Below, in pieces: positions 1,648-61,389 of a stretch of DNA of 64,000 bases. A program made the translations under genes and the position numbers. Position 1 is the stretch's first letter, and every line of letters begins with the position of its first letter. This DNA is from Hondaea fermentalgiana (taxonomy: Eukaryota; Sar; Bigyra; Thraustochytrida; Thraustochytriidae), in assembly GCA_014084085.1 (NCBI GenBank), contig NPFB01000111.1, positions 57,492 through 121,491 of the forward strand, read 5' to 3'. Below the pieces are notes generated by a model. The model was not told the origin of the DNA, did no database searches, and worked only from the letters and a program-made list of their open reading frames with translations.

Positions 1648-2775
1648 CGCTCAGACCCGGATGCAAATGGATGAAGGAAACTCGTCTTGCGTGCGAGGTG
1701 CGGAGTTCTGGTCTGTTCGTAGACGTAGGCCGCCCAAGCACAAGATGAGTCTCTCTATTTGTTTGCTTGACTCTTGGCCTACTTGCTTTGCTCGCGAGAC
1801 AGCGATGCCTTCCGATGTTCGGCCAACAATATCCTCTTCGCCTCCTTCGTTTTTAATTGTGTTTCGACTGCCTTCCATTGCTTGCGTCGCAAAGCAAATC
1901 CTCATGATGTCTTCGCAGTACGACATCCCGCTGCTTCTTATCTCATCTCACTAGCACACCCGACCAGAGCATCCACTTTCTTTCCCATTTTCTTGCAACA
2001 GCTCTTCGCGGCACGTGCAGCCAGCTAGAGACGCACCATAGATCTTTCCAAATAAACGTAGCGCACTCTCCCCCTGTGCGCGCCCGCTACATCATCCCGC
2101 TCTCCAGTCAACCGGCCAACCAGCCACCCAGCAAGCCTTGAACCAGCCGTAGTGGGAGTCTGCGTCCCCGTTTTCTTCGCCGGATCCATCGAGACTGCGC
2201 AACCCAGTTATCCGTTGAACGGCTTTGATGCCATTGTTTATACCCACCATATACCAGGCTTGTGCTGTGCTGTGTTGCGCTGTGCTTTTTGCTGGAGCAG
2301 GCTTTGGTCCATTCGCAGTCAGCCAAGACAGTAGTGGGAGCAGCACGAATCCACTACAGGACACGTACAAGCCAACGGGTTGTCTACCTTATACCTTATT
2401 TGTGATTGATTGTCTACCAAGAGTACCGTCGCTCCCTCGCAACGTTCGTTCGCCAGAAGCAGCGCGCACACCTGTTTCGCGGCCGGGGCGCGAAGGCCTC
2501 GAGCACGAATACCTCAAGGTGCCGTGCGCGCGAGAAGGCGCTTAGGGCGCTTGGGCACAAACACACTCGACGGACGCGTACGGACGCGTACGGACGCGTC
2601 ACGTTTTGCATCGGCACGAGTAGCCACCACCTACCTCTGCACGCACGCTCTGCTCACACGCAAGCGTGGCAGACAACGAAACCTACGACGTGCAGCTGCC
2701 GCAAGCCAAAGTAAACAAGCAAATAAAAAGGAAAACCCATTTGCTTTCGAAATCTGAGGCAGCTAGCCATTCACG
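1648..2775. other. Intergenic region between divergent genes (1.1 kb)
   Basis: Shared upstream region of the TTL-like gene (-) and the PH-domain gene (+). It has short overlapping frames with no recognisable protein. A CTGTGCTGTG-type simple repeat lies near 2260-2290 and a tandem ACGGACGCGT run at about 2570-2600. No RNA gene was seen. Confidence 0.5.
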
Positions 2776-5700
2776 ATGGCGCCTCTCGTCGGCGCGGCGC
2801 CGACAGGGCCGTCCGCTTGGTCAAGCACCGACGTGCTCCGTATCAGCGTAGAAGGCAAAGGCATCATCGGTTTTGTCGAGGTCGGGTCCTCGAGTAACTT
2901 GGTGGATGCTCGCCAAAAGATTGTGGCCGAAGTTGATGGTCTCTCGGACACAAACACCTTTCAGTTCCAGCTACCCGACGGAGTCCCCATCTCGCGCAAG
3001 CAAGAGGCTTGCATCCTTGCACGCGAGTTCCTTCCCGTAATTCATTTGCGCACTCGGGAGTCTGCGCACCACCGACAAGGTTCTCGGACCCCAACTGGCG
3101 CCAGTGCAAGCGCAGGTTCGGGCGCAGGCACAGGCACTGGTGCAGGCACAAGCACAGGCACAGGTGCAGGTGCAGGTGGTGCCCCTGCAAGCATGCAGGA
3201 TCCGATTCGGCAGTCAACCCTGACAGCGCCATTTCATCGTCCGCTTCATCAGAATGCCCAAAGTGGAAGCTATGTAAGCAGCAAGGTCACAGTCAGCTTT
3301 CTTGGCGAACCCTATCACCTTTGGGTCACCACTGGATACACGTTTGCCCAGCTCCGGCGAGAAGCCGCGCGGTATTGGAGCTTTCCCTCGGACCAAGTTG
3401 TACTCATGGACGAGGATGGCTGCGCGTGGCCAGACTCAGCGATTATCAGCGCTGTTCTGGCAACAGGAATGCTTGACCGTCGCGAGATCTTGCTCGTGCG
3501 CAAGCCCGGAACCATGCTCGATCATGAAGGCTCAGTTGTGCGGCCTGAGTTTCGCAAGACCTTGCGGCACTCGGACAGCCCACGAGCCGGACCTGGCATT
3601 CGAACATCTCGCAGCGGGCCTCGCTCTCCACATCATGCAGCCGGGGTCGCGCTCTCTCTCGACACCTCCATTTCTCCGCGCGCAGGAGCGTTTTCAGCGC
3701 CATTGAGTACGGATCCTGAGCGACGCGAAGTGTCGACACTTTCGCGCCATCATCAACAGAAACGGCAATACCCACTGCGTGGCGATACAGAGGTCATCGA
3801 AGTGCTTTCTCAACCCAGCGAGAGTGACACCGAGGCCGTTCCAGTGCGTGTCGACGGTCAAAATGGTGCCTTGGGCGGTCTCAATAGCAAGAACAGCCAC
3901 ACAGATGACGAAGAGGACGTGTATACCGAGATTCAAGTTGCAGCTTTTGACGAAAGAGAAACTCTGGGCGATGGCGGGGACGGACCTGAAGGCGGCACCG
4001 GCGAGGAACACGCAGAGGATACGATCCGCGATGGCCTTTCTTGCGAGGAACGTAGCGAGTCTCTACTCTCGCCAGGGACCCACGGACCTTCCACGCCACA
4101 CGCGGGAGGCACTACCGCTGCCAATGTGGTGATGGAACGTTATGCGGATCTGTGGCGCGCCTTTACGTATTACTGCGCCCAGATTGACTCAAACAGGCCT
4201 TTCAGCATGGACCGGCGAGGTTTCTATGGTTTTCTGCAGGACTGTAATCTCGTGGACGATCACAGCTTCACTCCTGCCAAACTCAACCTCATCTTCACCG
4301 CGACGTGCAAGAGCGGCTCGCGCAGCAACCGCATGTGCTTTGCCGACTTTCTCGACGCTCTCATGATGCTTGCGCGTAAAATTCGACAAAAACAGAGCGC
4401 GCGTAAACCTCCAGGTTCCCCGAGTCAGCGCCATCTCACCGCAGCAGAAAAGGCCCAGGAGGAGTATACTATCCTGGCGAGCTTTGTGCAGCTGCTCACG
4501 CACGTGATACTTCCTCGCGCAGCTACGTGGAACTTGCGCAAATGGGACATGCATGCCGACCTCGCCGAGCGGCCCGAGGTCCTTGCCACGCTGCAGCCCT
4601 TTGTCAAGCCCTTTTACGAGATCTTCGGCTTTTACGCTCCTGCAGTACCCTCCAACAAGCTCGACATGGAAACCGACGCCTGCTTTTATTGGCCAACCTT
4701 TTCTACCTTTTCTCTCGATTTCCAGTTTGCCGAACTCAACATCCGCCCATGGCTTGCTGAAATTTACGTTTGCGCTGCAAGCCAAGTCCCCCTGCCACTC
4801 AAAGGTCGCGCATCTTCTTCTCAGGGTGCCAAACTCGGGTTTGCCTACGAAGATGCCGATGAGCCCGAGCGGTCGCAGCCGCTCATGACACAGCAGAGAT
4901 ACCTCTTGCAGCACGCCTCGGGCGATCCAATATGGGAACGTCCGACCATGCGCTTTGGTCAGTTTCTCGGCGCGCTTCTTCGTGTGGCATGGTACGCTTT
5001 TCCGGACCTGGCCACAGGCCGGCGGCCTGAGCTGGCGGTCAAGGCTCTTGTGCAGCACTTTTCCAAGTGCCTTCGCAAATCATACGTCATGGACATTGTC
5101 GAGAAACGTAAAGACGTCAGCAAGTACCCGCATGGGCTACTTTCCGGAACCAAGATGCTCTACAAGCGTTACGTGGACATGTGGAAACACGACGGCCAGC
5201 CCGATTATCTTTCCGACGAAGATCTTTCCGATGACGAAGACAACAATGCCGTATACCACGTGACGGACCCCGAGCAGGCTTTAGGCAACGCCGCGTCCGC
5301 GCCACTGACCCCGGGGGCGCTTTCCCGCGCCAGCGACTGGGCCTCGCCGCCTGCAAACCGGCGACGCAGCCTCAGCGCAGGGACAAAACGGTCTGGCGGC
5401 TCTGCGTCGAACCGCCGCGACCACGCCGCGTCATTTCTTGGGGACGGGCGCCGCGTCCTCGAGCAGCTCGTCGCCGCCGAAGAGGCACGCACGGCTGGAG
5501 GAAACCCGAACGGACCCGCTGTCGCCGCGCTGCTCGGGCTCCAGGACCGCTCGCCGACTCACGACCAGCAGCAGCAGCAGGCCATGCGCGAGAGGTCTCG
5601 CTCTGCCTTTGGGCTCCTCGACGGCGACGACGAGGATGATGCCGAGGGCGTCGAGCATCGTCTCGAGGGACTCTTCGGAAGTGACCAAGACCTCCTGCGG

Positions 5701-6684
5701 GGACAGCAGTCTCCCTTTACCCTCGGCCACGACGGCTCTCTTGGCAACACAAAGCTCGCGCAAGGAGGCTCTCTGGCGCACTCGCCTGCGCGCGCGGGCG
5801 AGTCAAAAGGGCTCTTGGCGCGCGACAGCTCCGCGGACGTGGATCCGAACGGAAAGACATCCCCGCGCTGCTCCGTGAGCACGCAGAGTCCGCGGGACTT
5901 TGGCCTCAAGCCCATCGACGCCCCGACGCGCGCGAGCGCCACGGAATTGTCCGCAGACAAAAGCACTGGCGGCGACCGCGACGGCTCTGTCGAAAAAATA
6001 AACGATCTGTCGGGATGTCTCGACAGCGAGGAGAAAGACAACAGCGGCGACTCAGAGATGGACAGCTCGAGCGACGATGCTGACACGTCAACGTTGCGGT
6101 CGAAACGGAGCATGGCCAAATCGAGCGCAGGAGGACCCACATCGGGCATATCAACGAGTGAGGCGCAGAACAGCCAGATCCCGCACCTTAGTGACAATGC
6201 GGACGGTTCGCTCACCCTGGCTTCAGTCGATCTCCTGGGACGTGTAAGCCAGCCGACGTATGAATTACTTTGCCACGGTGGGGTATTTCTCAAGCATGGT
6301 AGGCGGGGTTACCCCCACCGTCGCTTTGTGTGGTGCGACGAACGCCTCCAGCGGGTATATTGGTGTCCCGTGGACCGCAAACCGTCCAAATCAGGACCCC
6401 GTGTCCGTGCGCGTTCGCTCGCAGTGCAAGAAATTACTCAGGTTACGGACGGCTTGCAAACAGACCGTCTGCAACGGTTGCTCAAACCCAACACGGGCCC
6501 TTGGCATCTTCGTCGGCGTTCGGGATCGGTTTCTTCGGACAGCGGTGTAGAGATTAAACGCTCCCTTTGCTTTTCCCTGCATGGAAAGGACCGTACTTTG
6601 GATCTCGAGGCAGATGATGGCGAGCTCCGCGGAGAATGGATTGGTGCCTTTGAAGAGATTCTACGTCTTCAGCGTCATGACTGA
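2776..6684 (+). CDS. Protein with two ubiquitin-like segments, tandem p25/EF-hand-like domains and C-terminal PH domain
   Basis: 1302 residues; ATG at 2776. Residues about 18-95 and 168-245 look like small beta-grasp (ubiquitin-like) modules separated by a Gly/Thr/Ala low-complexity run (about 108-136). Residues about 453-535 (YADLWRAFTYYC...FADFLDALMMLARKI) resemble the p25-alpha/TPPP EF-hand-like fold. A second related segment lies at about 606-770, with a YWPTFSTFSL loop and an FGQFLGALLRVAW helix. A long acidic, Ser-rich linker (about 775-1155) includes a short Gln run. Residues about 1162-1300 form a PH domain (GGVFLKHGRRGYPHRRFVW ... WIGAFEEILRLQ). p25-type proteins bind microtubules and PH domains bind phosphoinositides, so a membrane-cytoskeleton linker is a reasonable inference. 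I do not recognise the full architecture. Confidence 0.75.
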   Translation: MAPLVGAAPTGPSAWSSTDVLRISVEGKGIIGFVEVGSSSNLVDARQKIVAEVDGLSDTNTFQFQLPDGVPISRKQEACILAREFLPVIHLRTRESAHHRQGSRTPTGASASAGSGAGTGTGAGTSTGTGAGAGGAPASMQDPIRQSTLTAPFHRPLHQNAQSGSYVSSKVTVSFLGEPYHLWVTTGYTFAQLRREAARYWSFPSDQVVLMDEDGCAWPDSAIISAVLATGMLDRREILLVRKPGTMLDHEGSVVRPEFRKTLRHSDSPRAGPGIRTSRSGPRSPHHAAGVALSLDTSISPRAGAFSAPLSTDPERREVSTLSRHHQQKRQYPLRGDTEVIEVLSQPSESDTEAVPVRVDGQNGALGGLNSKNSHTDDEEDVYTEIQVAAFDERETLGDGGDGPEGGTGEEHAEDTIRDGLSCEERSESLLSPGTHGPSTPHAGGTTAANVVMERYADLWRAFTYYCAQIDSNRPFSMDRRGFYGFLQDCNLVDDHSFTPAKLNLIFTATCKSGSRSNRMCFADFLDALMMLARKIRQKQSARKPPGSPSQRHLTAAEKAQEEYTILASFVQLLTHVILPRAATWNLRKWDMHADLAERPEVLATLQPFVKPFYEIFGFYAPAVPSNKLDMETDACFYWPTFSTFSLDFQFAELNIRPWLAEIYVCAASQVPLPLKGRASSSQGAKLGFAYEDADEPERSQPLMTQQRYLLQHASGDPIWERPTMRFGQFLGALLRVAWYAFPDLATGRRPELAVKALVQHFSKCLRKSYVMDIVEKRKDVSKYPHGLLSGTKMLYKRYVDMWKHDGQPDYLSDEDLSDDEDNNAVYHVTDPEQALGNAASAPLTPGALSRASDWASPPANRRRSLSAGTKRSGGSASNRRDHAASFLGDGRRVLEQLVAAEEARTAGGNPNGPAVAALLGLQDRSPTHDQQQQQAMRERSRSAFGLLDGDDEDDAEGVEHRLEGLFGSDQDLLRGQQSPFTLGHDGSLGNTKLAQGGSLAHSPARAGESKGLLARDSSADVDPNGKTSPRCSVSTQSPRDFGLKPIDAPTRASATELSADKSTGGDRDGSVEKINDLSGCLDSEEKDNSGDSEMDSSSDDADTSTLRSKRSMAKSSAGGPTSGISTSEAQNSQIPHLSDNADGSLTLASVDLLGRVSQPTYELLCHGGVFLKHGRRGYPHRRFVWCDERLQRVYWCPVDRKPSKSGPRVRARSLAVQEITQVTDGLQTDRLQRLLKPNTGPWHLRRRSGSVSSDSGVEIKRSLCFSLHGKDRTLDLEADDGELRGEWIGAFEEILRLQRHD
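3102..3180 (+). repeat. GGCACA/GGTGCA-type hexamer repeat coding for Gly-Thr/Ala-rich tract
   Basis: Imperfect tandem hexamers inside the preceding gene. They encode alternating Gly, Ala, Thr and Ser between the two ubiquitin-like segments, probably a flexible linker. Confidence 0.8.
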
Positions 6685-6903: not shown

Positions 6904-9900
6904 TCAACTTTGTTTTGTTAGTGCTGCGAGATCGAACCGCGCTCGCTCCTCTGCGTCCATGTCGACGATTCCACGAGTGAAAATCGTCTCACGAAAGAAG
7001 ACATCGAGATCTCGATGCAATGGCTTTGCTCGCTCTTTTTCCTCGGGAAGGGGCGGTGCAAGTTTGGTCCTTGCATCTTTGAGTTTGTGCCTCGCTGCCA
7101 GAGATGCCTTGGCTCGTGCCTCTACCTCGCATGCCCGAAAGCTTGCCTCTACCTCGGGCGAGGCAAGTAACAGTTCGTGATACGCCTGTGTCCACATATC
7201 CATTTCGGTACTGGGCTCTGCCTTGACGTCGCGGTGCTCGGCCTTTGCCAAGCGCGCATGCTGAAGACGAAGAAGCGACTCAATCGTGCAAAGACCTGGA
7301 GGAATCTCGCTCAAGAGCAGCTGATACCGTCTTGTCCGCAACGCACGAGGATCGCGAGCAGGCAACATTGCAAGAATCTCCATGATGGCTTGTTTCGCCG
7401 CAACAACTAGATCGAGTACGCGTCTCGTGCCTTCCGGATCGCCACGGTCGGAGATGATTGCTGCGTGTCTTCCAAGGTCGGCCGACTGCTTGAGAGTATT
7501 CTGGAGACGGACGAGATCAGATAAGAGCCCGCGCATATCGTCAAGCTGCCCGCGATGCGCTGCTCGTGTTGGACCCTTTTTCACAAGCTCAAGATTATCG
7601 GCGAGCTTGTGAATAACGCCAAGAAAGAGCACGAAACTTTCAGTCGGAGCACCAGACTCCATGCCGAGGCTCTCTGTACGAGCACAGAACATCTGCATTA
7701 CCTTGATAATGTCGCGCACGCAGACTTCGTTACAAAGTAGTCTCTCAACATCTTGGTGCCCTAGAAGTGAATAGAGTACAGCTGCCAGAGAAAGCTGAAA
7801 CGAATTCATCTCTGCTTCACTACTTTTGGGTGAGGCTCCACTACTTCTTGGTGAGGCTTCACCACTTTTTGGTGAGACTTCACTTGTCTCTGGCTTGTCC
7901 TGAGAGGTTTCTAGAGAGAGGAGAAGCGCTTTGGGCACAGTTTCGAGCGACTTTGCCTCGAGCAAGGTACTGCAAAAGGGCTGCGAAGCCCTCGTCAAGT
8001 GCAAGAGAACGAGCGCCGTTAATCCGCGACGTTCACCAGAAGCAGTCATTTCTTGCGGCAAGGCCGTCGAGGGACGTGCTTTGTCGAGACCTAGCGTAAG
8101 TGTACCGAGGAGAATGGACGCGAGAAATCGTCGCTGGTCGCTACCTTCAAGAGTCGGCGAAGCAGCGTGGTTCACGTGAGTGCATCGCAGTAAGCGAAAA
8201 AGTACGTATAGAATGCGGCGGTGCAGTTCTGGGTCGGTCTCCGGAAGTCCATTGATGAGAAGCATCGAGAGAACATCGCTGTAAAGGCCTTGAAGTGCGT
8301 CGGCTTCGTCGCGACAGCGATCGAAAGCACTCACGTCTGCCATTTCTGACAGCCAATAAATCAGAGCCGAGATGCTTGAAAATATTGTGTCCGCGTCTTT
8401 GTCAAGCGCAATGGGGATCTCACCGCGAAAGACGCGAAGGCGCATAGATAACGCGCGTGCAAGCGTACCAAGATTTGCAGGTGAACTTTCGTCCATAACA
8501 ATTTCGTGCCGCCGTTCCTTGTTCTCGAGACGCAGAAGATTCTCGCCAATCTGCACGAGTCCAGATCCACAATGTAATTTTCTTGCACCATCATCGCTGA
8601 CATAGTCCGGTGCGCCCCCGATCAAATCGGAAGCTTGTTGATTTTTGTTCAATAGCAGGAAGACTGTTCTGCAAGTGCTCGAAGCTGCTGCCTGGATCGC
8701 CAAATGAGTCTCGGAAGCGTCGGCGTCAGGTGTGGTGGCGATCTCGAAACCTTTGCCGACCTCAGTACCGGGTCGCTCCAGAAGCCTCTCGCAGCAGCAT
8801 GAGGTCAGAGCAACGAGGAACTGAATCAGCGATAGATGCTCTGGCTCGTCGAGTTGCAGGTCTGACCTTATGGTGCGAAGGAGACCTGCCGAGAGGAGCG
8901 CGCGAGCCCATCGATGTTGTTGGCCCTCACCTAAAGACACCTCGGTCTCCGTCTTTGCAAAGAGGGCCTCTTGTAGACTTGTGAGGAGCACCCAGCGAAA
9001 GACCTGCGTTCCTGGCAACGACACGAGGTCGACAATGAGAGGAGCGACCACACGGCGCAGAGCCTCTGTCGACGTCGTTGCGCCGAGACGCTCGTACACC
9101 AGCGCTGCCCGCTCGAGAGTCTCAACATCGAAATCGCTTCGTCGTGTCAGCAATCTGTGCAGAGACTCCATAAGGTCCTGAACCGAGGCGAGCGGGTCGC
9201 GAAGCACGAGACGCTCGACGAGTTCCAACAGCGTCTGCAGCTGGATTTGATCCGGTTCCCCAGGACGGCAATGGACCGCCTCGTCGACGAGCAGCTTTTG
9301 GGTAATTTCGCAGGCCTGTGTGCAAGGCGTAAAGTTGCGGCAGGTGCCGAGCAAGGGAGCGTAGAACGCGGGGCGCGAGAGGCGGCCTTCGCCGTCGGCG
9401 TCAAGAAGAGCAGCGTTCTTGTGACGGATCTCCTCGACCCGCAAAAGGTGGGCCCAAAGGTGGCCCACGGCGTTTTCTGCGAGCGCCGGGTCGCGCAGCA
9501 CCTGGTCCTTGAGCTCGCGGACTCGCGAGAGGAGCGCATCCTCCGCATTTTCGCGTGCAGACGACACGGGCCGTCTCGCGGGCTGCGGCACGGCGGACTT
9601 GCCGTCGGCATCTGCCAGAGCAGCGCCTGCGAGAAGCAGCGTCTCTGGAGCCAGGGCGAGCGCGGCCCGCAGGAGGTCGAGAAACGCAGACACACAGGGC
9701 TCCTGGGACCTACCGTCTTCGCCAGGGCCCGCCTGGGTGTGGAAAAGAGACCGCGCTCGCGCAGCAGGAGCGATTTTCCGATTGCGGCCGCTGGCGTTGC
9801 GTGAGGTCGAGAGGTTCTGCGCTGTGGTGGGGTCATCCCTGGCTGTCGCTCGAGCTGTTGCCCCTCCTGTGCCTTGTGCACCAGGTCCAGAAATCACATT

Positions 9901-11109
9901 GTCGAGGCTCTCATGACGCTCCTGTTCAGCATCGTCTCGTTCCAGGAGCTCATCTACGGGCCCGGCGAGCTGCATAGTAAGGAGGCGGAGCACCGCCTCC
10001 GCAAGTTCTCGCGCGGCAACAGAATCAAGGGCGAGCGAGCGCGAGCGCGTGACGAGGTTTGAGAGCGCCTTTGCGGCGGCATCGATAGTCCTCGGGTTCT
10101 TGGCGAAACCGAGATGGCTTGCACGCGTCGCAAGCGTCTTGACCAGCTGCCCGTCCATGCTGGTGGCCAGGACCTCGGCACCGTGTCTGTCGCCGGCCAT
10201 GGCTGCTAAAAAATGCAAGAGACTGACATCGGCGCGCTCGCGCACGCGCAGGGCCTCAGTGCCGGACTCGAAGCGCATGCGCTGCGTGCGGTCGTGGGCG
10301 GCAAAGGCAAAGGCGAAGGTTTCCTGCGTCGCCCAGATCTCGCGCACAGCCTTGCTGCACGGCGCGACAAGCGCCATGATTTGAAGCCAGGAAAGTGCCA
10401 CGTACAGCCAGGCGCATGCGCTTTCATGGCCATTTGCGGTCTCAATCTGTGCGATGGCGGCTGCGCCAAGCTTAGAAGCCGCAAAGGGCAAGGTGCCGAG
10501 GCGCGCGACGTCTGCCAGAAAGGCCTCGCGGATACTCGTCTCGCTGGACAGCAAGGTTTCGAGTGCCTGCACGGCGGGGCGCATCATTTCGTGCCCAGTT
10601 CGACGTGAGACGCGATCGAGGAGCTTGCACAGACTTGCTGCGACAGCAAGACGCTGCAGACGCTCGGGGAAGCGCCGAGCGTCATCTGCAAAGTCCTCAA
10701 AGAGCTCGATGCGCTGCCGCGAGCGGAGCATGGAAAACTCGGTGGCGTCGAACTTGCTGCAGTACTTGATCTCGAGCTCGCGCTGCTGCAATGCGCGCGG
10801 CGCGCCCGCTGCCGCCGTCGTCGCCCCGCTCGCATCGCTGATCTCGCTGCGCAGCGAGGCCTCGGACACGGACCCGGAGAGTTGCCGTCTGAATTTCTGC
10901 AGAATCGTGCCCCGCTTGGGGCGCGACGCGTGGCCCTCTTCGAAGGATCCCTCAGACCCGTTGTCGCCCTCGGCGGTCCCCTCGTCCTGCCGCAGCGCGT
11001 CCGCCGCCTCGAGCTCGCGCAGCACGTCTTCCGGGTCCGGGTGCACGAGGCGGCCGCCGCTGTTGCTCCCGAGGCTGCCTCTTCTCCTCCTCCTCGCGAA
11101 GATGCCCAT
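6904..11109 (-). CDS. Large helical-repeat (armadillo/HEAT-like) protein of unknown function
   Basis: 1401 residues; ATG at 11107-11109. The N-terminus is basic then acidic and disordered (MGIFARRRRRGS...; about residues 1-90). From about 115 onward the protein is almost entirely amphipathic helices rich in Leu and Ala, with the cadence of ARM/HEAT repeats (for example VLRLLTMQLAGPVDELL and ALFAKTETEVSL). Around residue 1090-1125 there is a short Ser-Pro-Lys repeat with the pattern (E/G)(V/A)SPKS. No catalytic motif, membrane segment or signal peptide is evident. The gene converges on the PH-domain gene with about 220 bp between them. I do not recognise the family; a cytosolic scaffold is a guess. 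Confidence 0.7.
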   Translation of the reverse strand: MGIFARRRRRGSLGSNSGGRLVHPDPEDVLRELEAADALRQDEGTAEGDNGSEGSFEEGHASRPKRGTILQKFRRQLSGSVSEASLRSEISDASGATTAAAGAPRALQQRELEIKYCSKFDATEFSMLRSRQRIELFEDFADDARRFPERLQRLAVAASLCKLLDRVSRRTGHEMMRPAVQALETLLSSETSIREAFLADVARLGTLPFAASKLGAAAIAQIETANGHESACAWLYVALSWLQIMALVAPCSKAVREIWATQETFAFAFAAHDRTQRMRFESGTEALRVRERADVSLLHFLAAMAGDRHGAEVLATSMDGQLVKTLATRASHLGFAKNPRTIDAAAKALSNLVTRSRSLALDSVAARELAEAVLRLLTMQLAGPVDELLERDDAEQERHESLDNVISGPGAQGTGGATARATARDDPTTAQNLSTSRNASGRNRKIAPAARARSLFHTQAGPGEDGRSQEPCVSAFLDLLRAALALAPETLLLAGAALADADGKSAVPQPARRPVSSARENAEDALLSRVRELKDQVLRDPALAENAVGHLWAHLLRVEEIRHKNAALLDADGEGRLSRPAFYAPLLGTCRNFTPCTQACEITQKLLVDEAVHCRPGEPDQIQLQTLLELVERLVLRDPLASVQDLMESLHRLLTRRSDFDVETLERAALVYERLGATTSTEALRRVVAPLIVDLVSLPGTQVFRWVLLTSLQEALFAKTETEVSLGEGQQHRWARALLSAGLLRTIRSDLQLDEPEHLSLIQFLVALTSCCCERLLERPGTEVGKGFEIATTPDADASETHLAIQAAASSTCRTVFLLLNKNQQASDLIGGAPDYVSDDGARKLHCGSGLVQIGENLLRLENKERRHEIVMDESSPANLGTLARALSMRLRVFRGEIPIALDKDADTIFSSISALIYWLSEMADVSAFDRCRDEADALQGLYSDVLSMLLINGLPETDPELHRRILYVLFRLLRCTHVNHAASPTLEGSDQRRFLASILLGTLTLGLDKARPSTALPQEMTASGERRGLTALVLLHLTRASQPFCSTLLEAKSLETVPKALLLSLETSQDKPETSEVSPKSGEASPRSSGASPKSSEAEMNSFQLSLAAVLYSLLGHQDVERLLCNEVCVRDIIKVMQMFCARTESLGMESGAPTESFVLFLGVIHKLADNLELVKKGPTRAAHRGQLDDMRGLLSDLVRLQNTLKQSADLGRHAAIISDRGDPEGTRRVLDLVVAAKQAIMEILAMLPARDPRALRTRRYQLLLSEIPPGLCTIESLLRLQHARLAKAEHRDVKAEPSTEMDMWTQAYHELLLASPEVEASFRACEVEARAKASLAARHKLKDARTKLAPPLPEEKERAKPLHRDLDVFFRETIFTRGIVDMDAEERARFDLAALTKQS
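7823..7895 (-). repeat. In-frame 24/27-bp repeats, Ser-Pro-Lys type
   Basis: On the plus strand the core TTGGTGAGGCTTCACCACT recurs three to four times with small changes. On the coding strand it gives repeated S-P-K/R-S-(G/S)-E-A-S-P units inside the helical-repeat protein. This looks like a local expansion that forms a phosphorylatable linker. Confidence 0.7.
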
Positions 11110-12081
11110 GCCGTCTGAGGAACGAGCGGTCTGGTCTGCGCGCGGCGGCGCTCAGAGCATCCTCGCCTCGCGCCGTCGGTCTCTGCGCGTCGCTGCCGGC
11201 GGCGTCGGCGGATATTGCTCGCTCGCTCGCTCCCTTCACGCGAACCGTGGCACGCGCCGCCGTTCTCTCGAGAGAACGGGCGGCACCTTTGCTTTGCTTT
11301 GGCTTTGCTTTATACATGGTTGGGTGGTTGAAAGGAAAGAAGATAGTTCAACTTGATTCTCCCAAGGGCAAGTGCAAGAGCAAGCGCAAGTGCAAGTGCA
11401 AGTTCAAGTTAAAGTTGAACGGAAAAAGGCTTCGCTGCAGCAGTGCAAGCAAGTTGAGCATGGACGAAATGACCAACACAACGGTAAGCCTTCAAGACAG
11501 AAGCAAAAACGTCAAAAGGAAACACGACAGGCTCTCGAAAGCGAAGAACGCGCAGCGGTGTTGCAGACGAAGCAAAACAGCAGGCACGGCAGCCAGCTGC
11601 AGCGCTGCTCTTCCCCATGTTCCCGTGTGCGCAACGCACTTTTGCCCCGCAACGGATCAATTGGGCCTGGATTAGACCGCTAGCAAAGCTGCAGCTGCGG
11701 GTGCACGAATTGCCTACAGTCGCGAGAGCTTCATGTCCGGAAGCCGGCGGGAACAGTCTCAGCTTCGAACGCCAGGCCGCAGCGTTCGTTGCTGCGGAAG
11801 GGGGGAGGCCGGGCGCTGCGGGCTCATTTGCGGTACCTCCCCCCCCCCGCAGCCGCACTGCGACCACTGCCGGAAAAGCATAGTAAAGCATGAAAAGCCA
11901 CACCTGTGTCACCAGAGCTTCGCAGCTTCCCCCTCGCCCAAGTCATCGCACCGTAGCGAACGCGACCCGAGGCTCAGGAACTTTCCCCCGGAACGCAAGA
12001 AGAGAGGGACGCACGTTGCGCGTCCCTGCGCTCGCGCCTTTCGCGTCCTCCGCGCCGCAAGTCGGGCCGGCTTCGCCCGCG

Positions 12082-24218: not shown

Positions 24219-26943
24219 TCATGATACCGAAGCAAGCGACCGCGGAGAATTCATGGCCGAAGCCGAGGGCAGTCGCCCATGCGAGGCCGAAAACGATGTT
24301 GCTGCTGACGATACCGCCATCGACGAAAAGACCGCTTGCAAAACCTCTTTCTTGTTTCTGTCCGGCCAAAGGTGGCAAAAGATGTCGTGCGCAAGCAGAA
24401 AGGCCCCGAGGGACTCGAAGCGCTTGCGTCCATTCCTGAACTCGAGCGAGACACCCCCATCAGGCCCGGGTACAACCAATGAGTGCACAACGCGACGAGA
24501 CGAGCCGCATGGCGCTGCCACCACGTAGGCCACGGCCAAATTACCTGGAACAGATTCGCTTATTCGAATGAGAAATGTCCCCGAGGACCGAGACAAGAGT
24601 ATCTCGTTGACCTGCTCTTTGGAGACGAGCCCAAAGATGACACCCTGATTCCAGTACTCGCTGTTGCTCAATAGCGAGGCTGTCGAGGCCTCAAGCCAGG
24701 CTGCAAAGGCTTTGACAACATCCCGGACAGGCTTTTGCGCGCGACCTTGGCCGGACCCAGCAATTCGTTCATACACAGCGCGTAGGCGCGCGAGGTCCCG
24801 TTCGGAAAACTTGCGATTGATACTTGGATATTTGTACAGGGCCTCGGGCAGAATCTCCTCGGTCGATTTGAGAACGGCGGACCACTGTGCGTCCGCATCA
24901 TCGGGTCGAACGAGCACGGAGATTCTCGCACAGGCAGTTTTCACCAATGAACGAGCCCAGTCCTCGTCCGAAGAGGCCGACACAGTTGAGAAAGAAGACG
25001 ACTGCGTCGATCCAAACGACGACGACGACGCCGTCGGCACGCCGAACCGGGCCTGCAAACAGCTCGTAGAAGGCCCCGCAAAGCCACCCACGTGGACGCC
25101 GTCGCGGCCAAGCGCGGAGTTCGGCACAGCCATGTTCCGAGATGCGAGCAGAGACGGCGCTGCAGAGGGCGTCTGCACTTGCATGCTTGACGCGGAGGGC
25201 GTATGCATTTGCATGCTTGGCGCGGAGGGTGTCTGCATTCGCACGCTTGAAGAAGGTGCCATCGGGACAGCAGGTCGCATTGGCGATGTAAGATCGGTAC
25301 CAAAAAAGGCACGCGCGGCACCTCGCGCAAAGTTAGACAAATCATGAAGATGCTGGCTGTGTAAATTTTCCGCAACTTGCCCAATTACAATGGGATGGCC
25401 TCGACATTCACGCACGACGCGATGACTGGCGAGCACCTGGAGTCGTTGACGACTGCTGAGTTTTGCAAAGTGTCCGCCCGCCACTCCATCCATTACCTCA
25501 ACCTCAATCAGCGATCGAGGGCTCAGATGCAAAAGAAGCTGCGCAGCGTGTTGTGCGCTGAGCTCACTCACTTCCAAAACAGATTCCTCAAGAGCAGCAT
25601 CGGCCAAGCTCCCTGCAACTCCCTGAGCACTGGCATTCCAAACACTTGCGCTAGGAAACGATGATGACGCAGACACGCCCGCAGAAGAACTCTCGGAACT
25701 GATTGCATTGCGACTCGTACATAGTACTGCCACGTGCGGACACGCGACCAAAAGGTCGCGTATGAATCCCGCGAGCGCCGTCCACGATGCCGCTGAGCGA
25801 TCCCTCCCTGCCCACTGCTCACAACCGTCGAGAAGGACGATGAGATTGCCTGGGTACGCTTCGTATTCACTGGTGACGGCATTGAGACCTGCAAAAAGAG
25901 TAGGTTCTGAATCTGCGGCGCAGAGAGCTCTTGGGCCGCTCGTGCAAAAGGCCTCGACCAAGGTCGCCCGCGCTTCACTGCCGCCCCGTAGCACGCCTCT
26001 TGCACCAGAATCTCTTACAAGAGGCACATAGCAGACGCCCTTGCAATGTCTTCGTTTGCTAAGAAAATTGCACGCCGCGATAGCGCAAGTCGTCTTGCCA
26101 ATGCCCTCGGCGCCGCAAATGGTGAGCCAGCGCGAGGGCGCAGCTTGGCGCGGCTGCGCAGATGGCAACGACTGTGCTGCCAAGACTTGCACGATACGCT
26201 GCGTAATCACCTTGCGCCCGATGGCACGACTTGTGATGCGACGACACGAATTAATAGTCGGCGGCGGCGTCTCGTCCCGGACCTCTCCGACTCGCCCCGG
26301 GTCAAAGACGGGAACCGCGTGGTCGACGCCCTGCTTTGGTAAGAGAAGAAACTTTTTCTCTTGACGTGTCCGCCACGCGTCGTCTTTTCCGGGCGTGAGC
26401 TGAATACACTGTTGGGCGTAATCGAAGGCATCTTGCACCGTATCTCCAGTCACGAGACGGTCATAGAAGAATTTGGCAAAGTCTCTGCCCACCTGATCCG
26501 CAACTCTCGAGTCTCTTCGCACGGCCACAACGTGCTTGACGCCAGCCTGAACAAATATGTCACCAATGGGATGCGAAAAGCAGGCGCTCACAAAGACAAC
26601 ATCGGGCATGCGGTCTCTGTCCAGCATGGCCTCGAGGTCCGAGGCGCTCAGCCTGTCGAGCTGACCGGCGCTGTCTTCGAGTGCAAGGAAGCCGTCGGGG
26701 AGTCCGTGACACGTAAAGTGGAGGACCTCGGCGGCACACTTTACGCCCTTGGCTTGCAGCGTGCGTCGCAGGGACTCTCGCGTCGCGGCCTCGACCCTGA
26801 TCGAGAGCGCCTGGCCTTTGTCCTCGAACATGTGCTTGAGGTCTTCGGCCTCGCGGATCACATCGAGGCCCTCGACTTCCTCCTCCTCCTCAGCGTCTCC
26901 TCGGGCCCCGTGCGCGCCGGCATGGTCCCGCCGCTGCCGGCGT
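24219..26943 (-). CDS. CHAT protease / NB-ARC (STAND) ATPase / STAT-like linker-SH2 fusion, 5' end lost in assembly gap
   Basis: Open from the gap edge (26943) to TGA at 24219-24221; about 907 residues visible with no acceptable initiator, so the N-terminus is missing. Residues are numbered here from the codon at 26859-26861. CHAT domain (about 1-190): HFTCHG with His52 and VSACFS with Cys94, the caspase-like dyad. NB-ARC (about 215-510): P-loop GAEGIGKTT (250-258), Walker B LIVLLDGCE (340-348), VLCTSRN (379-385) and GLPL-like CRGHPIVIG (486-494). A Ser/Pro/Met linker carries three 10-residue repeats (about 536-566). A helical segment (about 633-735) leads into an SH2 domain (about 738-845): WNQGVIFGLVSKEQ, GTFLIRISES with the phosphotyrosine-binding Arg766, and VVHSLVV. 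The WNQG...GTFLIR spacing is closest to STAT linker-SH2 regions. Known biology: CHAT domains are proteases, NB-ARC is a nucleotide-driven oligomerisation switch and SH2 reads phosphotyrosine. Inferred: an NLR-like sensor gated by tyrosine phosphorylation. Confidence 0.85.
25168..25257 (-). repeat. Three tandem 30-bp repeats inside the CHAT/NB-ARC/SH2 gene
   Basis: Units at 25168-25197, 25198-25227 and 25228-25257, the third more diverged. They encode a repeated S-x-Q-(M/V)-x-TPSA pattern in the linker between the ATPase and the SH2 half. Confidence 0.85.
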
Positions 26944-27043
26944 NNNNNNNNNNNNNNNNNNNNNNNNNNNNNNNNNNNNNNNNNNNNNNNNNNNNNNNNN
27001 NNNNNNNNNNNNNNNNNNNNNNNNNNNNNNNNNNNNNNNNNNN
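26944..27043. other. Assembly gap (100 N)
   Basis: Exactly 100 unknown bases, the usual placeholder for a gap of unknown length. It interrupts the 5' end of the CHAT/NB-ARC/SH2 gene in a very GC-rich stretch. Confidence 0.98.
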
Positions 27044-30180: not shown

Positions 30181-30762
30181 TTAACTGCTGTCTTTTACTT
30201 TCCTGTCAGGTGAATTACATTCGTGAACTTTATCCTGAATCTCGTCGACGTGATGATTCTGCAAGCTTTGTGAATCAGTGAATAGTTTTTCACGAGCACA
30301 TACTGTATCGAGTGCTTCAAGCAAGGGCCTTTGGATGCGAACGATGGGTCGTGCCTCGCGCATGACAGAAAAAGCCTGCTCCTTGGACATCACGAGGACG
30401 AGTACGCAAAAAGCAACGACAAAGGCCGGTGATCTGGACATCCCGGCCATGCAGTGGACCAAGACTGCTCCGCCAGACTCGCTTCGAATTGCTGCGATTC
30501 GCATTGAGGCATCAACCATGAGACCAGGAATGCTTGCGTCCCTTGTATTGTCCTTGATACCATACTTGAAAAAGATCAAGTCTGGTTGCTGTACAGGTCC
30601 TCCGCCGATGCTGATAATGCCTTTGATGCCCGCAGCATCTAACGCCGCTCGATCACCGGCTGCACTACGATTGCCCACCCAAACGCCAGGGACGACTTCG
30701 GACATGCGTCCGCTTGTCGATGCATTGCGCTTCGCGCTATTTCTTTTGCCGCGGCGAGGCAT
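30181..30762 (-). CDS. Dual-specificity protein phosphatase
   Basis: 193 residues; ATG at 30760-30762, with a second ATG 19 codons on (MSEVVPGVWVGN) that matches the usual domain start. The PTP loop HCMAGMSRS (103-111) supplies the nucleophile Cys104 and Arg110. The SEVVPGVWVGN entry strand is typical of atypical DUSPs, and Asp71 in GIKDN is a candidate general acid. A basic 19-residue N-terminus precedes the domain. The protein is short and lacks MAP-kinase-docking or rhodanese domains, so it is an atypical DUSP whose substrate (phospho-Ser/Thr/Tyr or other) is open. A hydrophobic stretch after the P-loop (FVVAFCVLVLVM) is the normal core helix, not a membrane span. Confidence 0.9.
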   Translation of the reverse strand: MPRRGKRNSAKRNASTSGRMSEVVPGVWVGNRSAAGDRAALDAAGIKGIISIGGGPVQQPDLIFFKYGIKDNTRDASIPGLMVDASMRIAAIRSESGGAVLVHCMAGMSRSPAFVVAFCVLVLVMSKEQAFSVMREARPIVRIQRPLLEALDTVCAREKLFTDSQSLQNHHVDEIQDKVHECNSPDRKVKDSS

Positions 30763-48197: not shown

Positions 48198-51100
48198 TCA
48201 AAATGTGTAATTGCTAATACCGGTGAGCTTGGCGAACTCTTCGTTAATAACGCGCTCAAAAGCCTCGGGCTGCTGCCGATGTGTCTTGGGAATAACTGCC
48301 CCAAGCGTGCTGCCCTTCTTCACGGGACCTTCACTCGCCGCGAGTTGCGTCACAAACTTGGAAACGAGTTTTTCCGGCATGCAACATTCCCGCGTCGAAT
48401 CAAATTGCATGCAGTCACGCACAAGACTGTCCACCAAGCGCACGACAACCGAAGCCTGAGCTTTAGAAAGCTTCAATCGCGCGAGTTTTCCCTTATTCAT
48501 CTCGTTCAAGATAAAGGTCTCTGGATCGAGATCGGAGCTCTGCAAGTCAGCGAGCACATCGACCTGCACACCGCCTTCGAATAGAGGCGCGTGAAGACGC
48601 CCATTGCACGTGTACGGCCCGTGGCGACTAAAGATGGGAACAATGGCCCACGCAAAAACCTCTTGATCCATCCGATCGGTCCGAACCGTTCGCACGTCTA
48701 CAATCAACACCATCTTGGGGTCGTAAGGGACGTCTCGAAACACGTGCAGCTCATCAAGAAAACGCGGCGCCCCGACTGCTGCATCAAAGTCATGCGTCGT
48801 TGTAAAGGCTACGACGTCAGTGAGTCGGGGATCGCCGTAGTACGCACCAGGCGGGTTCAAGGAAAAGATTACCTTGTGCAGTTTGTTCTTGCCGACATCA
48901 CGAGAGCGCAAACCCGTAAGGCCCTCGATGGCAACCGCAAACCCTGTCTCTGGCTGATACTGTGCTGCATGGTCGAGCGGCATCATGCCCTGAGGCTGGC
49001 TCAGCCTCTTAACGACCCAATCTTGCAATTCTTTGTCCTCCATCACATCGACGTGCTTGTCTTCGGCGACACCCGGTCGTCGCGCAAGGGTTACCATTTC
49101 TCCAACCAGAACCTCTTCGCGGTCCGCCAGCACCGCGTACAATTTTTGCTCACAGGATAGCGGCTCGCAACGGCTCGTGTCATAGCCAGCACGCGGGCCG
49201 TAGCGTGGCGCTGGAACTACAAGACCTCTCCGCTCCCATTCGTCGTGCGGAAATTCATCGAGACGCAAAATGTGCACATTGTCCTTGCTCTTCTTTGCTG
49301 GCAGGATGCGCACGAGCAAGGTTGCGCAGGGAACGCGATGCGAGCTCTCAAACAGCTTGGAGGAAAATGTCTGCGTGGTGTCAGGTCGCTCCTGATACAA
49401 GGGCAACTGAAAGCTTCCACGCAGCAAGGCGTACTCTTGCGTCGTTGACTTGGAGGCCTGCTCATCAGTGCCATTTGGCATGCAAAAGGGATTAAGACAC
49501 GTGTACCCAATGGCCTTGGTTGCCTTGGTGAAACGGTCGACCGTGTCGATGCGAAAGAGCAGAGTTCCCGCCGGATTTGCAACGGCTTCGCCCCGAAACT
49601 CCGCTCGCAGCCTATATTTCGGGTTGTATGCACTGTCACCCAAAGATGCATGGGCTCGGTGCTCCTCGCCAATAAGCTCATAATTTGGAGCCAGCAGCTT
49701 CACGTGCACCGCAGAAATCGTCGCATAGTCTGGAAGACAACGAGCCCCATCAATATAGACGTCAAAACCATCCTCACCCCGCTCAAAGAGAGGCGGATTG
49801 CGCGAAAGCTTGACTTTGTTCTCCACAAAAGGCGCATGGTCATCCACAGCGGGCTCTGGGTCTTCTTTGGCGTGCGGAGACCGCTTGCGCCTGGAATCGC
49901 CAACGCTCGAGCCATCGTGCCGCTTCCTTCCACTTGCGTCAGCTTCATCGTCGTCAAAGTCATCTTCTTCCTCGCTGCTCATCATATCGTCTTCGTCTTC
50001 CTCGGCAATTGAGGCAATACTCGCCACCGACCTTCGCCGTCGTCGTCCATTTCGTCGACTTGCAGAGGATGAAGCAGCGCTCACGACGCTGCTGCTGCTA
50101 CTTGGTGTTTTTGTCATGGAGAAAATGATGCGCGCATCAAGAGATTCGGCGCGCCCATCGTCGACCGGGACAACAACGGGAGGTTGAAGCAGGTCCAAAG
50201 CTATTGGAGCTGATCCGCTCTCAACGCGCCCTTCCTCACCGAGCAAAGGTTTTACGGCCCAGCCTACAAGTCTCACGCTCGCGCCATCGAGGCTTTTGTT
50301 AACCATCGAAGCGCTTGCTTCGCTGCCATCTGCCACGTCGGCCTCCGCATTTTCGCTCGAATCGTCCAGTCCTTCGGGCAGGCGCTCAAAAATTTTGACA
50401 AGTAATACCCCCTGGGCGTCAATGTTGATCGAGTCAAAGAATGTCGGATTTGTGTATGCTCGCGTCCACGAGACTTGACCCGTGCTGACACGAATGTCGC
50501 GAGCTTCAGATTCCCAGACGCGTGCATTTCCTGGAAGTCCAGAGTAGTCAATGACTGCACTCGTGCTGGGAAAAGCTTTGAGTGCCTCCGCTTCTGCTCG
50601 GACAGCCGCGTTGACACATGATGCGTCACCAAGAGCAATAACACGAACAAAAATCATATGCGCGGGGCTCTCGCGAGCGAACGCGACGTGGTCAAGCTGC
50701 AGATTCACGCGACGCTTCTTTTTCAACTTCAGGGATGTGGACTTTTTACGCCGCGAAGCAGAACTTGTCAACGTCTGTGCGCCAGCCGAATCTGCTGAAA
50801 CGATAGACCGGTCCGCAACGGAGCCCAGTTCCGAGGCACCGTCGTCGCCATGTTTTGCAGAGTGCCTCGACTTGTTCCCCTTGCGCCTCGAGGTCGACTT
50901 TTCCTTGCGCCGCGAACTCGAGCCCTTTTTCGTCTCCTTTCGTGGTGGCCAGCGCTTGTAGAGGTGCTGCGTCACGCACGGGTCAATCACAAAATCCATA
51001 GAGACGTCTATATCCGCCATGTGAACCATGCGTAAAAACAAATGCATTGGCTCACCCGCGGCGCCATCATCAGGATCGGCACCGGGCTGGATGGCTCCTG

Positions 51101-53984: not shown

Positions 53985-54184
53985 TCGGGTCTCCCTCGAG
54001 GCTGACTAGTTGGGGCTTGCGCCTTTGTTGCTCGCGCCGGCGTGCAATGGCTTGTTTTCAAGACGCAGCAGCGGCGAGAACCTCGCCGGTCTAGGACAAT
54101 GTGCGCCCCCAAAATTAGTCTCAGCTGCGCGCCATGGGCCGTCGGGGCCTTGGCTCCCAATAAGGAAAGTTTTAGCTGTCTGAG

Positions 54185-55961: not shown

Positions 55962-58900
55962 TCAAAAGGTACCGTCACCGGAAACGCGGCGCTTCACTTC
56001 AACGAGCACGCGGCGAAAGAGCTCACTCTCCATTGCACGACGCTCGAAAAGACGACGTCGAAGAGGAAGAGACTCGATCTCGCCAAAGAGTACGCGCAAG
56101 TCCTCAGGCGACTGCCTTTTCGCATTGTATATCTTCAGAAACGACTCGTAGCCCGATTCCTCGTCGTGAGCCACAATGACCGGAATTCGGAAATCCATTG
56201 CGGTGCGAACTTCCTCTTGCACTGATGACTCGAGGAGAACCCCGTCAGACAGCAAAAGTAAAAGTACGATGCTATTGCGGACATTTTCGACCACACCGCC
56301 TGTGCTGGGTGCATTCTCGGTGTCGGAGCGCAAACAAACCTCGAGCCCGAGACCTTCAAGGATATCTCTGATATATGTGCAGGTTTCGCCTGCATTGGCC
56401 TGCCGATAGCTGATGAAAACGTGTGAGTCCGCCTTGGAAGGCAGCGGTACGCTAGCTGCAGTCCTTATATGTCCGACAACATCGCTCTGGTGCTGTGCTC
56501 GCGAGAGACCAAAACACCCTGGGAGCTCGTCCCGCCAAGCATCAAAGACATCGCCTAAGTCTTGCGCACTCATCCATCTTGCCAAAGAGGCTCGCGGGAC
56601 TTTCTGATGACAGGACCCGCGCGCGTATTTGCGATTCTTGGACCAAGTATATTTGGCTTCATCGTAGTCCACCTGAACCGAGCCGAGGCGACCCACGGGT
56701 ACTTGAAGCTGCGCAGCAAAGGTTGCTTGATTTCGCATGACTTCCTCGTTGAGGCGAGCCAGCATTGACAAGAGTTCATCCACAAATGCAAGTTGCGCAC
56801 GTGACTCGTCCACAATGCAGCGAATGCGCCCTTCCTCGACCTGCTCTGTCATGCGGCAACTGGCTTCGCCCAGCCAAAAGAGCACTTCACCTGGTCCTGG
56901 CAAAGGTGCCCGCGAGGCGCCCAAGAAGGCCGCAGCATGCGAGTGTTCCACAGCCAGACAGACCAGACGCTCAAAGAGACCTTTGGGCAAAGAAAAAGTC
57001 CCCTCGACAGTCAAGTAGAAGACTAATGCCTGTCCCGACGCTGTCGAAGGCATGTGCTCCTCGATTTGTTGCAGCCGCTGCGCCACGTCCTTGTCACCCG
57101 GACGTTGCAGACATAGGAGCGAAGGAATTAGAAACGTATCTGGCTGGGGCAAGACGCCACCCGCAGGAACAAAAGCTCGTTGACAGTCCGAAGAGGACGT
57201 TTGGGAGGGACAAAGAATTTTCATGTTGACTGACTCAAACGAGCAGGCAAGCATCATGTGTCTTAGCATTGCAATGAGAAATCGTCGTCGCGTAAAGTCT
57301 TGATCATTAGAATCTTGATCCTCGTCCACCCACAAAGAGTAGAGAAGCTTGCGTGTTGCAATGCCTTGTACGCGAAGAAGGACAACGTCCTCCGGGCATG
57401 CATGTTGAAGAAATTTACGCACAGGCAAGCAAAATGGGTGCATACCAACGTCACGTATCACCATAGAAAAGCAGCGGATGAGCCACTGAGGATCGAGCAC
57501 AACGAAATCTCGAAGGCCAACAACCTCGCGAAAATAGAAGAGCATCCCAAGCTCGTGGAATAGCGCCAGGGCGGCTTGCACTTGTTCCGTGTCCGAGATA
57601 TTACAGCCCTCAGCTGCAATCACTTCGACATCCTCGAGAGCTAGATGCTCTTCGCCTCTTTCGATTAGCAAGTCAAAAAATCTGGACCACGCGAGGGGGA
57701 TAGGGCGCGCAACATGCGGTTTCATCAAGCTAATCCTCGTTACCAGAGTTCGCAGCCATCGTACTCCTGCATCTTCGTCATCCAGTGTGTTGTCCACGGG
57801 ACAAAAGCAAAGACCTTTTGGATCGTACTCTTGAAAAAACGTCGATGCATAGGCTGACAGTCTCAGCTCCGTGCGCAAAACCGAGTCGATTAGAGCTAGC
57901 TCATTAGATGTATGCACTTGGTCCCCATACGTCCCTACAAGGAGCACGCGAGCGCCCGAGGTGGAAAAGTCAATACATTGAAGCCAGTAGAGGAGATTTT
58001 CGAGCGCCTGGGGACGGTCTTCGATTCTAAGCACGTGGTGCATGTCAAAGACAACCAAGTATACTGCACTGCGACTCAAGAGGATGTGCTGTAATGGGGA
58101 AAAGGCATGCTGTCCACATAATTCCCACGATGATATTGTGAGTGTGAGATCGTGTCCCAGCGTTTCCTTGGCGTGTACAAACTTTTTCACGAGTTGATCG
58201 TCCAGCTTGCTCATGATTTCTTCCGTTGCTGAAAGAGATATTGGCTCTGGATCAACAACAGGAATTCTGTCTTGATCCAAGAGGAACACCCCACGAAATG
58301 TGGAGAACAGCCGGTTTGACACGTTTCGCGCAAGCGATCGAGCCAGGTCTGCCACACCACGTCTCCGCGACGAGGGCACTCCTGCCATACTTTCGGGTCG
58401 ACGGAGCGTTTCCATAGCTTCAAGCGGCAAGAAAGAGGAGCACAACTGAAGATCTCGTGCGCTTTCGGGGTTGCGCATTTGTCCTGCAGACGCTGACCCC
58501 TCTGAAGGCTTGGACCGTGTTCCTGCAGCTGCCGCAGCAACGGTACGTGCTGAATGGATGGCAAACTCACTGTGTGCCAAATCCTTCTCTTCCCATGTGG
58601 TCGCTTTTTCTGAAATTGTGGCAGTGACTGTTGCTATATCCACACCGAGAGTTTGTGGTAGCTCTCCAAAAGAGTCACCGAGGAGTGATCGCGATAGCGC
58701 CGATTTGCCCGCTTGGCTCTGCCCAACTAGGAAGAGACGACTACGATTGAGCGGACAGAGCTCGCCGTCCAATGCGAGATTGTATAATGCACGGTACTGC
58801 TTTACCTCACTACCACTTACCTGGCGGTATACGGTCGCCCATCTCACCAGATCTTCGAAGTCTGCAGAGTACGGACTCCGTTCACGACCGACGACGGAAG

Positions 58901-61163: not shown

Positions 61164-61389
61164 CGTAGAGTGCTCTCTCGTGAAGGACGCAGCTCGCTTG
61201 GCTTTGGCTTTCGACCCGCTTGGACATTTCGCACTTCATCCCTCGATTCGCTTCGCCATTCCCTCGCTCGCAAACTGGAAGCTGTACTCGGGGTCATCCC
61301 TCGCTCGAGGGAACTCTTGCGTCTTGTGATTGACAGTGAATGATGGATTGTCATTGGCTCTCGCTCATCTCATCACGTGCAAGCGCGAC

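Follow-up and report, generated by a model that had tools for sequence, protein, structure and literature searches.

A putative CHAT-STAND receptor protease with a STAT-type linker and SH2 domain in Hondaea fermentalgiana

The open frame and its modules

The window analysed here is a stretch of 64,000 nucleotides from the thraustochytrid Hondaea fermentalgiana (Stramenopiles, Labyrinthulomycetes; contig NPFB01000111.1, positions 57,492 to 121,491). It lies within contig C15 of the 36.0-Mb Hondaea assembly (238 contigs) that was searched as the genome. There is a single open frame of 907 codons on its reverse strand that encodes a CHAT protease domain, a P-loop STAND nucleoside triphosphatase (NTPase) module, a linker and an SH2 domain (Table 1); the stop codon is at 24219-24221. 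In 500 first-order Markov sequences of the same DNA, which served as a control, the longest stop-free frame had 445 codons. Six relatives (P0002 to P0007) make up alignment A2 together with the window protein, and residues described below as identical in all seven proteins are so in this alignment. The first-pass annotation, made from the letters of the window alone, had assigned the CHAT, NTPase and SH2 modules to one protein, and this is borne out by the single frame, the Pfam matches and the same layout in the six relatives.

The N-terminus of the protein is cut by an assembly gap; by alignment, the start codon lies in this gap, as does the strand with which CHAT begins in the relatives (LAYLF..PL). 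This strand is present in P0002, P0003 and P0005 to P0007; P0004 is also cut N-terminally, and the frame of P0003 begins with Met and contains the strand. The deposited NCBI model of the gene, P0001, is named "STAT A" and has 634 residues. Its N-terminal start consists of residues translated from beyond the run of N and is supported by none of the relatives. A stretch of 297 codons is also absent from P0001, and the ends of this stretch fit GT-AG. Over its length, 101 of 271 aligned residues (37%) are identical to P0002, and over its ordered part 69 of 148 (47%). The intron that P0001 implies is in our judgement a mistake of the model, since the sequence concerned contains no stop, keeps the frame and is conserved as protein in the relatives. 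The name given to P0001 implies membership of the STATs, which we reject on the grounds that the protein has no Pfam match to the STAT coiled-coil or DNA-binding domains and no tyrosine after the SH2 domain. The public record, in which the protein is called 'STAT A' and 297 residues are omitted, needs correction.

Table 1. Position of the features at the locus and of related genes elsewhere in the assembly
Feature	Position	Strand	Remarks
CHAT-STAND-linker-SH2 open frame, 907 codons	24222..26942	-	Single frame without stop; N-terminus cut by assembly gap
Assembly gap, 100 N	26944..27043	.	Upstream of the frame
CHAT protease domain, residues 29-185	26388..26858	-	Pfam PF12770, 4e-14; dyad in 7/7 proteins
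P-loop NTPase core, residues 240-376	25815..26225	-	Walker A GAEGIGKTT, Walker B LIVLLD
Rest of STAND module with GxP motif, residues 377-548 (bounds by eye)	25299..25814	-	69/148 identical to P0002
Stretch absent from P0001, 297 codons, residues 377-673	24924..25814	-	In frame and open
Low-conservation Ser-rich linker, residues 549-656 (bounds by eye)	24975..25298	-	Identity 25% to P0002, 12-22% to the five others
Region with STAT-like linker domain, residues 657-769 (start by eye)	24636..24974	-	1uur alignment spans this region and the SH2 domain
SH2 domain, residues 770-845	24408..24635	-	Pfam 2e-5; genome profile search 2.1e-5
C-terminal tail, residues 846-907	24222..24407	-	Without tyrosine
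C209, CHAT-like, STAND NTPase and linker-SH2 gene	L015:3579-5918	-	AAA_16 and SH2 over cut-off
C79, putative membrane receptor	L010:2568-6110	+	1181-codon frame: EGF-like motif, hydrophobic stretch, CHAT, NB-ARC below cut-off
C91, very long frame	L011:3480-9899	-	Long N-terminal part, weak LRR, then CHAT and AAA_16/NB-ARC below cut-off
C189, tandem-SH2 protein	L013:3203-5953	-	First SH2 region weakly like the EF-hand/SH2 part of CBL

The CHAT domain scores 53.2 bits against a curated cut-off of 24 bits. Among solved structures the family CHAT profile matches the CHAT protein 8tl0 (1.7e-11); a match of this profile to a chaperonin (6.8e-4) was taken as chance. There is a catalytic dyad of His79 (26706-26708) and Cys121 (26580-26582), identical in all seven proteins, which confirms the His/Cys pair proposed in the first-pass annotation, where the cysteine was numbered Cys94. 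The domain is predicted to be a caspase-clan cysteine protease effector, and proteolysis itself is presumed.

The Walker A and B motifs noted at first sight are also upheld, as Lys283 and Asp372 are identical in all seven proteins. The same is true of Gly515 and Pro517 of the GxP motif, which we take to be GLPL-like. In the window protein the NTPase matches Pfam NACHT (0.0074) and NB-ARC (0.013; 15.2 versus 23.5 bits), both below the cut-off. Two of the six relatives have an NTPase match over the cut-off: NB-ARC in P0004 (28.0 versus 23.5 bits) and AAA_16 in P0003 (37.3 versus 32.6). A search of the whole Hondaea genome with the PF00931 profile gave no matches at E<=1e-3. The nearest solved chains to the NTPase region are AfsR (8.3e-5) and Apaf-1 (0.005), both weak and partial matches. 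The initial reading had included a CTSRN sensor, but the family does not keep this exact motif: in the seven proteins the third position reads S, S, T, K, T, T and T. It had also named an NB-ARC switch; a P-loop STAND-like NTPase is indeed there, but NB-ARC is weak in the window copy and a winged helix was not recognised.

The SH2 domain scores 25 bits against a cut-off of 21 bits in the window protein and is over the cut-off in all six relatives. The match is significant, over the curated cut-off, and lies where an SH2 domain had been predicted (24329-24650). The phosphotyrosine-binding Arg of that prediction is found as Arg793, which we take to be the phosphate-binding Arg beta B5, and is identical in all seven proteins, as are Ser795 and Ser797. 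The window protein has Lys775, Arg793, Ser795, Glu796, Ser797 and His820, presumably the residues of the SH2 pocket. Three of these positions vary over the seven proteins: 775 (K, K, K, R, N, N, N), 796 (E, E, E, E, I, I, I) and 820 (H, H, H, H, K, K, K).

When the window protein was compared with the PDB sequences there were 23 matches at E<=0.1, comprising 21 STATs (Dictyostelium STATa first), the CHAT protein 8tl0 and GRB2. The family linker and SH2 profile also has Dictyostelium STATa (1uur) as its first match in the PDB (4.3e-18), with an alignment spanning both the linker and the SH2 domain. The first 21 of the 60 matches listed for this profile (63 matched) are STATs, and SHP2 and Abl come after them. 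The STATa alignment starts near Trp687 (24882-24884). There are EF-hand_12 matches directly before the SH2 domain in P0005 to P0007 (1e-4 to 9e-4, below the Pfam cut-off) and no Pfam match to this family in the window protein or P0002 to P0004; we assume that EF-hand_12 is the family of the STATa linker. By kinship the SH2 domain is classed as STAT-type, with a putative STAT-like linker before it. The structural marks reported for STAT-type SH2 domains are the absence of the beta E and F strands and a split alpha B (PMC12470777).

Relatives, paralogues and neighbouring genes

The homologue and profile searches, including those for the paralogue C209 described below, scored the 7998-7999 candidates sharing most words, and there may be more relatives. 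The homologue search gave eight proteins, P0001 to P0008, at E<=1e-3. In P0002 to P0007 both CHAT and SH2 are over the Pfam cut-off, P-loop matches lie between them and the order of the modules is the same. P0005 to P0007 are near-copies, so that the six relatives stand for about four lineages. P0002 is 46% identical over 95% of the window protein; it is a 972-residue open reading frame that MMETSP names as a transcript open reading frame of type 'complete'. The architecture of a CHAT-STAND protein with a STAT-type reader is established, and it is conserved in several sources.

P0001 and P0008 were left out of alignments A2 to A5, the former as an incomplete model and the latter as a protein without SH2. 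P0004 was also left out of A5, being N-terminally cut, and P0007 was left out of A4 and A5 as a near-copy. P0008 (1343 residues) is related over the CHAT-STAND part and has an IQ motif; it has neither CHAT nor SH2 by Pfam and is possibly a further architecture. The profile search gave 21 proteins, of which 13 were new and weaker (P0009 to P0021), and there is no SH2 among the domains listed for these. The PADLOC and NCBIfam libraries had no match for the window protein; there were weak matches for P0005 and C209 (both libraries) and for P0003 (NCBIfam), mostly over the ATPase part.

Domain counts in the Hondaea genome are lower bounds, as exons were searched singly. The CHAT model matches in at least four places: the window gene, C79, C91 and C133, the last of which is a separase. 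The SH2 model gives at least five matches, in four genes: the window gene, Spt6 (C173), the tandem-SH2 gene C189 and C209. Apart from Spt6, the genome thus yielded three SH2 genes, and two of them encode CHAT-like STAND proteins. The hydrophobic stretch of C79 was judged by eye, and a run of N begins at L010:7138.

The C209 protein can be aligned to the family CHAT profile over its N-terminal part (hhalign 97.1%, 5.8e-11 for a single comparison) and to the linker-SH2 profile over its C-terminal part (97.2%, 3.4e-11). It has Ser in place of His79 and Gln in place of Cys121. C209 is thus, as judged from these profile alignments, a gene of the same layout in which both CHAT catalytic residues are replaced: it shares the CHAT-like fold, the P-loop STAND module and the linker-SH2 with the window gene and differs from it in the catalytic positions and in its long branch. 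Apart from the shorter deposited Hondaea model of the same gene, P0022 (hypothetical protein FCC1311_064392; 647 residues, no SH2 match), C209 has no database match. The deposited contig of P0022 has 117783 bases, compared with 103536 for C209.

P0002 is the nearest neighbour of the window protein (100/99) in a 14-row tree of the CHAT and NTPase parts, and P0004 and P0003 come next. C209 falls with this clade (91/90), its branch being very long (4.19). The positions of P0005 to P0007, C79, C91 and P0008 are ambiguous, and the tree is therefore compatible with one gain of SH2 as well as with several.

Elsewhere in the window, a dual-specificity phosphatase (DSPc 2.3e-12) is encoded at 30184-30762 (-), roughly 3 kb away from the end of the gene that faces the gap; an epimerase-family gene lies in the interval. 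At 55965-61235 (-) one frame encodes an actin domain (5e-84), with Roc and COR-A after it. This gene had been described as an actin/Roco/TIR fusion, and the first two parts of that description stand; TIR had no match at E<=1e-4. Three further frames, at 2767-6681 (+), 6907-11151 (-) and 48201-54005 (-), have 1305, 1415 and 1935 codons, respectively, and no Pfam match at E<=1e-4.

Comparison with known systems

In the prokaryote genome collection, 184 stretches fit the search patterns and five encode a relative, the best three of these being from Chloroflexota. In their alignments to the window protein, the Chloroflexota loci cover CHAT and NTPase, from residue 14 to residue 414 in the best locus. 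The two that were scanned (L024 and L025) encode CHAT, NACHT/NB-ARC and TPR, with no SH2 match. They share with the Hondaea protein a CHAT domain followed by an NB-ARC/NACHT-type STAND module and differ in that they end in TPRs, with an additional N-terminal EAD7 in L024, whereas the Hondaea protein ends in a linker-SH2. There is no Pfam match to C-terminal repeats (LRR, WD40 or TPR) in the window protein or its relatives. The proposal that SH2 occupies the sensor position is supported accordingly, the linker-SH2 lying where L024 and L025 carry TPRs. The simplest reading would be a bacterial-type CHAT-STAND core in which a eukaryotic STAT-type linker-SH2 has replaced the repeat sensor. SH2 domains also occur in Legionella, which would qualify the earlier statement that they are confined to eukaryotes. 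Viral contigs gave 48 pattern matches, none of them encoding a relative, and phage gave no match; a viral or phage origin was rejected on these results.

Among eukaryotes, the fungi have NLRs that bear CHAT, and fungal gasdermins are reported to be controlled by CHAT proteases (PMC10197012, PMC12881547). The fungal proteins resemble the Hondaea protein in having a CHAT effector on a eukaryotic STAND receptor, but their sensors are described as WD40, ANK or TPR (PMC10197012, PMC12881547, PMC9815663). The word SH2 is absent from the main text of all three. A further difference is that gasdermin is present in the fungal system and has no match in Hondaea at E<=1, which is a weak negative.

Dictyostelium STATa (1uur) is similar in having an EF-hand-like linker and then an SH2 domain with a GTF.IR.SE core. 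The window protein differs from the STATs in having no match to the STAT coiled-coil or DNA-binding domains and no tyrosine after SH2, and in having a protease and an NTPase instead. The AP-ATPases Apaf-1 and AfsR are alike as the nearest solved chains to the NTPase region; the matches are weak and partial, however, and neither the winged helix nor the C-terminal repeats are recognised in the window protein.

Literal-word searches of the literature, with subscription papers and bioRxiv outside them, found no paper on the combination of CHAT, STAND/NB-ARC and SH2. The part of the Acanthamoeba genome paper that was available mentions no SH2/NB-ARC fusion. In sponges, SH2 is reported among the C-terminal domains of Death-like/TRADD-N proteins (PMC8195603). 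There, SH2 is put to a parallel use together with death domains; the main text of that paper does not contain the word 'CHAT'.

Proposed mechanism and alternatives

Taken together, the data suggest that the gene probably encodes a STAND (NLR-like) receptor protease in which SH2 reads phosphotyrosine on another protein and CHAT is the effector. At rest, the receptor would be autoinhibited. The STAT-type SH2 domain would dock on a phosphotyrosine of another protein, and the receptor would thereby be recruited or freed from autoinhibition; the absence of tyrosine from the tail suggests that the ligand acts in trans. The central P-loop STAND module would then work as an ATP-dependent switch through which the NTPase assembles, and substrate cleavage by the CHAT domains brought together in this way would serve defence, death or stress signalling. 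A phosphotyrosine-gated mechanism is strongly suggested, although we infer, rather than observe, that SH2 binds phosphotyrosine, that nucleotide gates the assembly and that CHAT cleaves proteins, and likewise what the receptor does in the cell. A fuller version, about as likely as not, is a phosphotyrosine-gated NLR protease that arose in Hondaea and its relatives when a bacterial-type CHAT-STAND core was joined to a STAT linker-SH2, with the catalytically dead twin C209 in Hondaea possibly serving as a decoy, brake or co-receptor.

The machinery for phosphotyrosine is plausible in Hondaea because two of the six protein tyrosine phosphatase matches in the genome are strong. The exact HRDLAARN pattern, used to look for a classical tyrosine kinase, had no match, a result that bears neither on variants of the motif nor on TKL kinases; a looser kinase-motif pattern produced hits by chance alone and is disregarded. 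TKL kinases are a kind of phosphotyrosine writer reported for Dictyostelium (PMC4053784). Since the exact HRDLAARN motif is missing and the kinase model PF07714 picks up Ser/Thr kinases too, our guess is that the writer is a TKL kinase rather than a classical tyrosine kinase.

Several observations weigh against the proposed receptor protease. The NTPase is weak by Pfam in the window copy and below the cut-off in four of the six relatives. A winged helix/MHD has no Pfam match in the window protein or in P0001 to P0007, although a diverged one is possible; the classic ADP lock may consequently not apply. With no winged helix/MHD recognised in the part that separates the NTPase from the linker, the linker-SH2 may take over the role of this lock. 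P0005 to P0007 have N, I and K at positions 775, 796 and 820, and reading of phosphotyrosine may therefore not be general in the family. The 149 matches to PF07714 (140 of 255 candidates scored) are to a profile that Ser/Thr kinases match as well, and the genome has no exact HRDLAARN tyrosine-kinase motif. As to the substrate, the gasdermin model PF04598 found none in the Hondaea genome at E<=1, a weak negative given that the control genomes also had none over the cut-off, and there is no obvious substrate among the genes beside the window gene.

The pocket differences in P0005 to P0007 would also fit an SH2 domain that targets or scaffolds, or that reads something other than phosphotyrosine, with the switch worked by the NTPase, the linker or a partner. 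There is a precedent in the SH2 region of Spt6, which is reported to bind a serine-phosphorylated tail (PMC3507883). In the window protein, however, all six pocket residues (Lys775 to His820) are present, and we consider this explanation fairly unlikely. Alternatively, SH2 could bind the phosphotyrosine of a second copy, as in a STAT-like self-latch, so that the receptor dimerises and CHAT is activated by proximity. The linker-SH2 is nearest to the STATs, and STAT-type SH2 domains are linked to dimerisation in a review (PMC12470777). However, the window protein has no tyrosine after SH2. Among the relatives P0005 and P0007 have one, at 'PRYDKE', where P0006 has Phe, and the only tyrosine columns shared by six of the seven proteins are Y160 (CHAT) and Y806 (within SH2), with none in all seven. 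A self-latch is quite unlikely because there is no conserved tyrosine after the SH2 domain.

Compatible with the phosphotyrosine-reading receptor protease, and rather unlikely as the explanation of the locus, is a regulatory pair of the active CHAT protein and the dead-CHAT C209, whose linker-SH2 domains would answer the same ligand. The layout of C209, with its CHAT-like domain altered at the dyad, P-loop module, SH2 over the cut-off and the same linker-SH2, is consistent with such a pair, as is its place with the window clade in the tree. It is countered by the failure of Pfam CHAT to match C209, and of the window protein as genome query to find it at E<=0.01, by the very long branch, by the lack of any database match for C209 beyond its own model and by the location of the two genes on different contigs. 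Finally, the assembly gap touches the N-terminus and the NCBI model differs and is shorter, as might be expected of a misassembly or a fusion of neighbouring genes. P0002 to P0007 have the same modules in the same order, however, one of them is named as a transcript open reading frame, and the stretch missing from P0001, its ordered part in particular, is conserved in P0002. Because six relatives share the layout, one of them named as a transcript, a misassembly or chance fusion is very unlikely. Misassembly was among the refutations set down in the first-pass annotation, and misassembly or separate genes are rejected on the grounds of the same relatives.

NLR/STAND receptors and SH2 phosphotyrosine readers are usually separate proteins, even where their pathways meet, as for SHP2 or STAT3 and NLRP3. 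The architecture described here combines a STAND receptor with an SH2 reader in a single chain, and the caspase-clan protease of that chain comes under a STAT-type reader. This points to the STAT linker-SH2 as a portable module and offers a testable system for the swapping of STAND sensors. If the proposed reading is true, a single protein would lead from tyrosine phosphorylation to proteolysis of the caspase kind, and Hondaea would supply a candidate, in a protist, for a path resembling pyroptosis or apoptosis.

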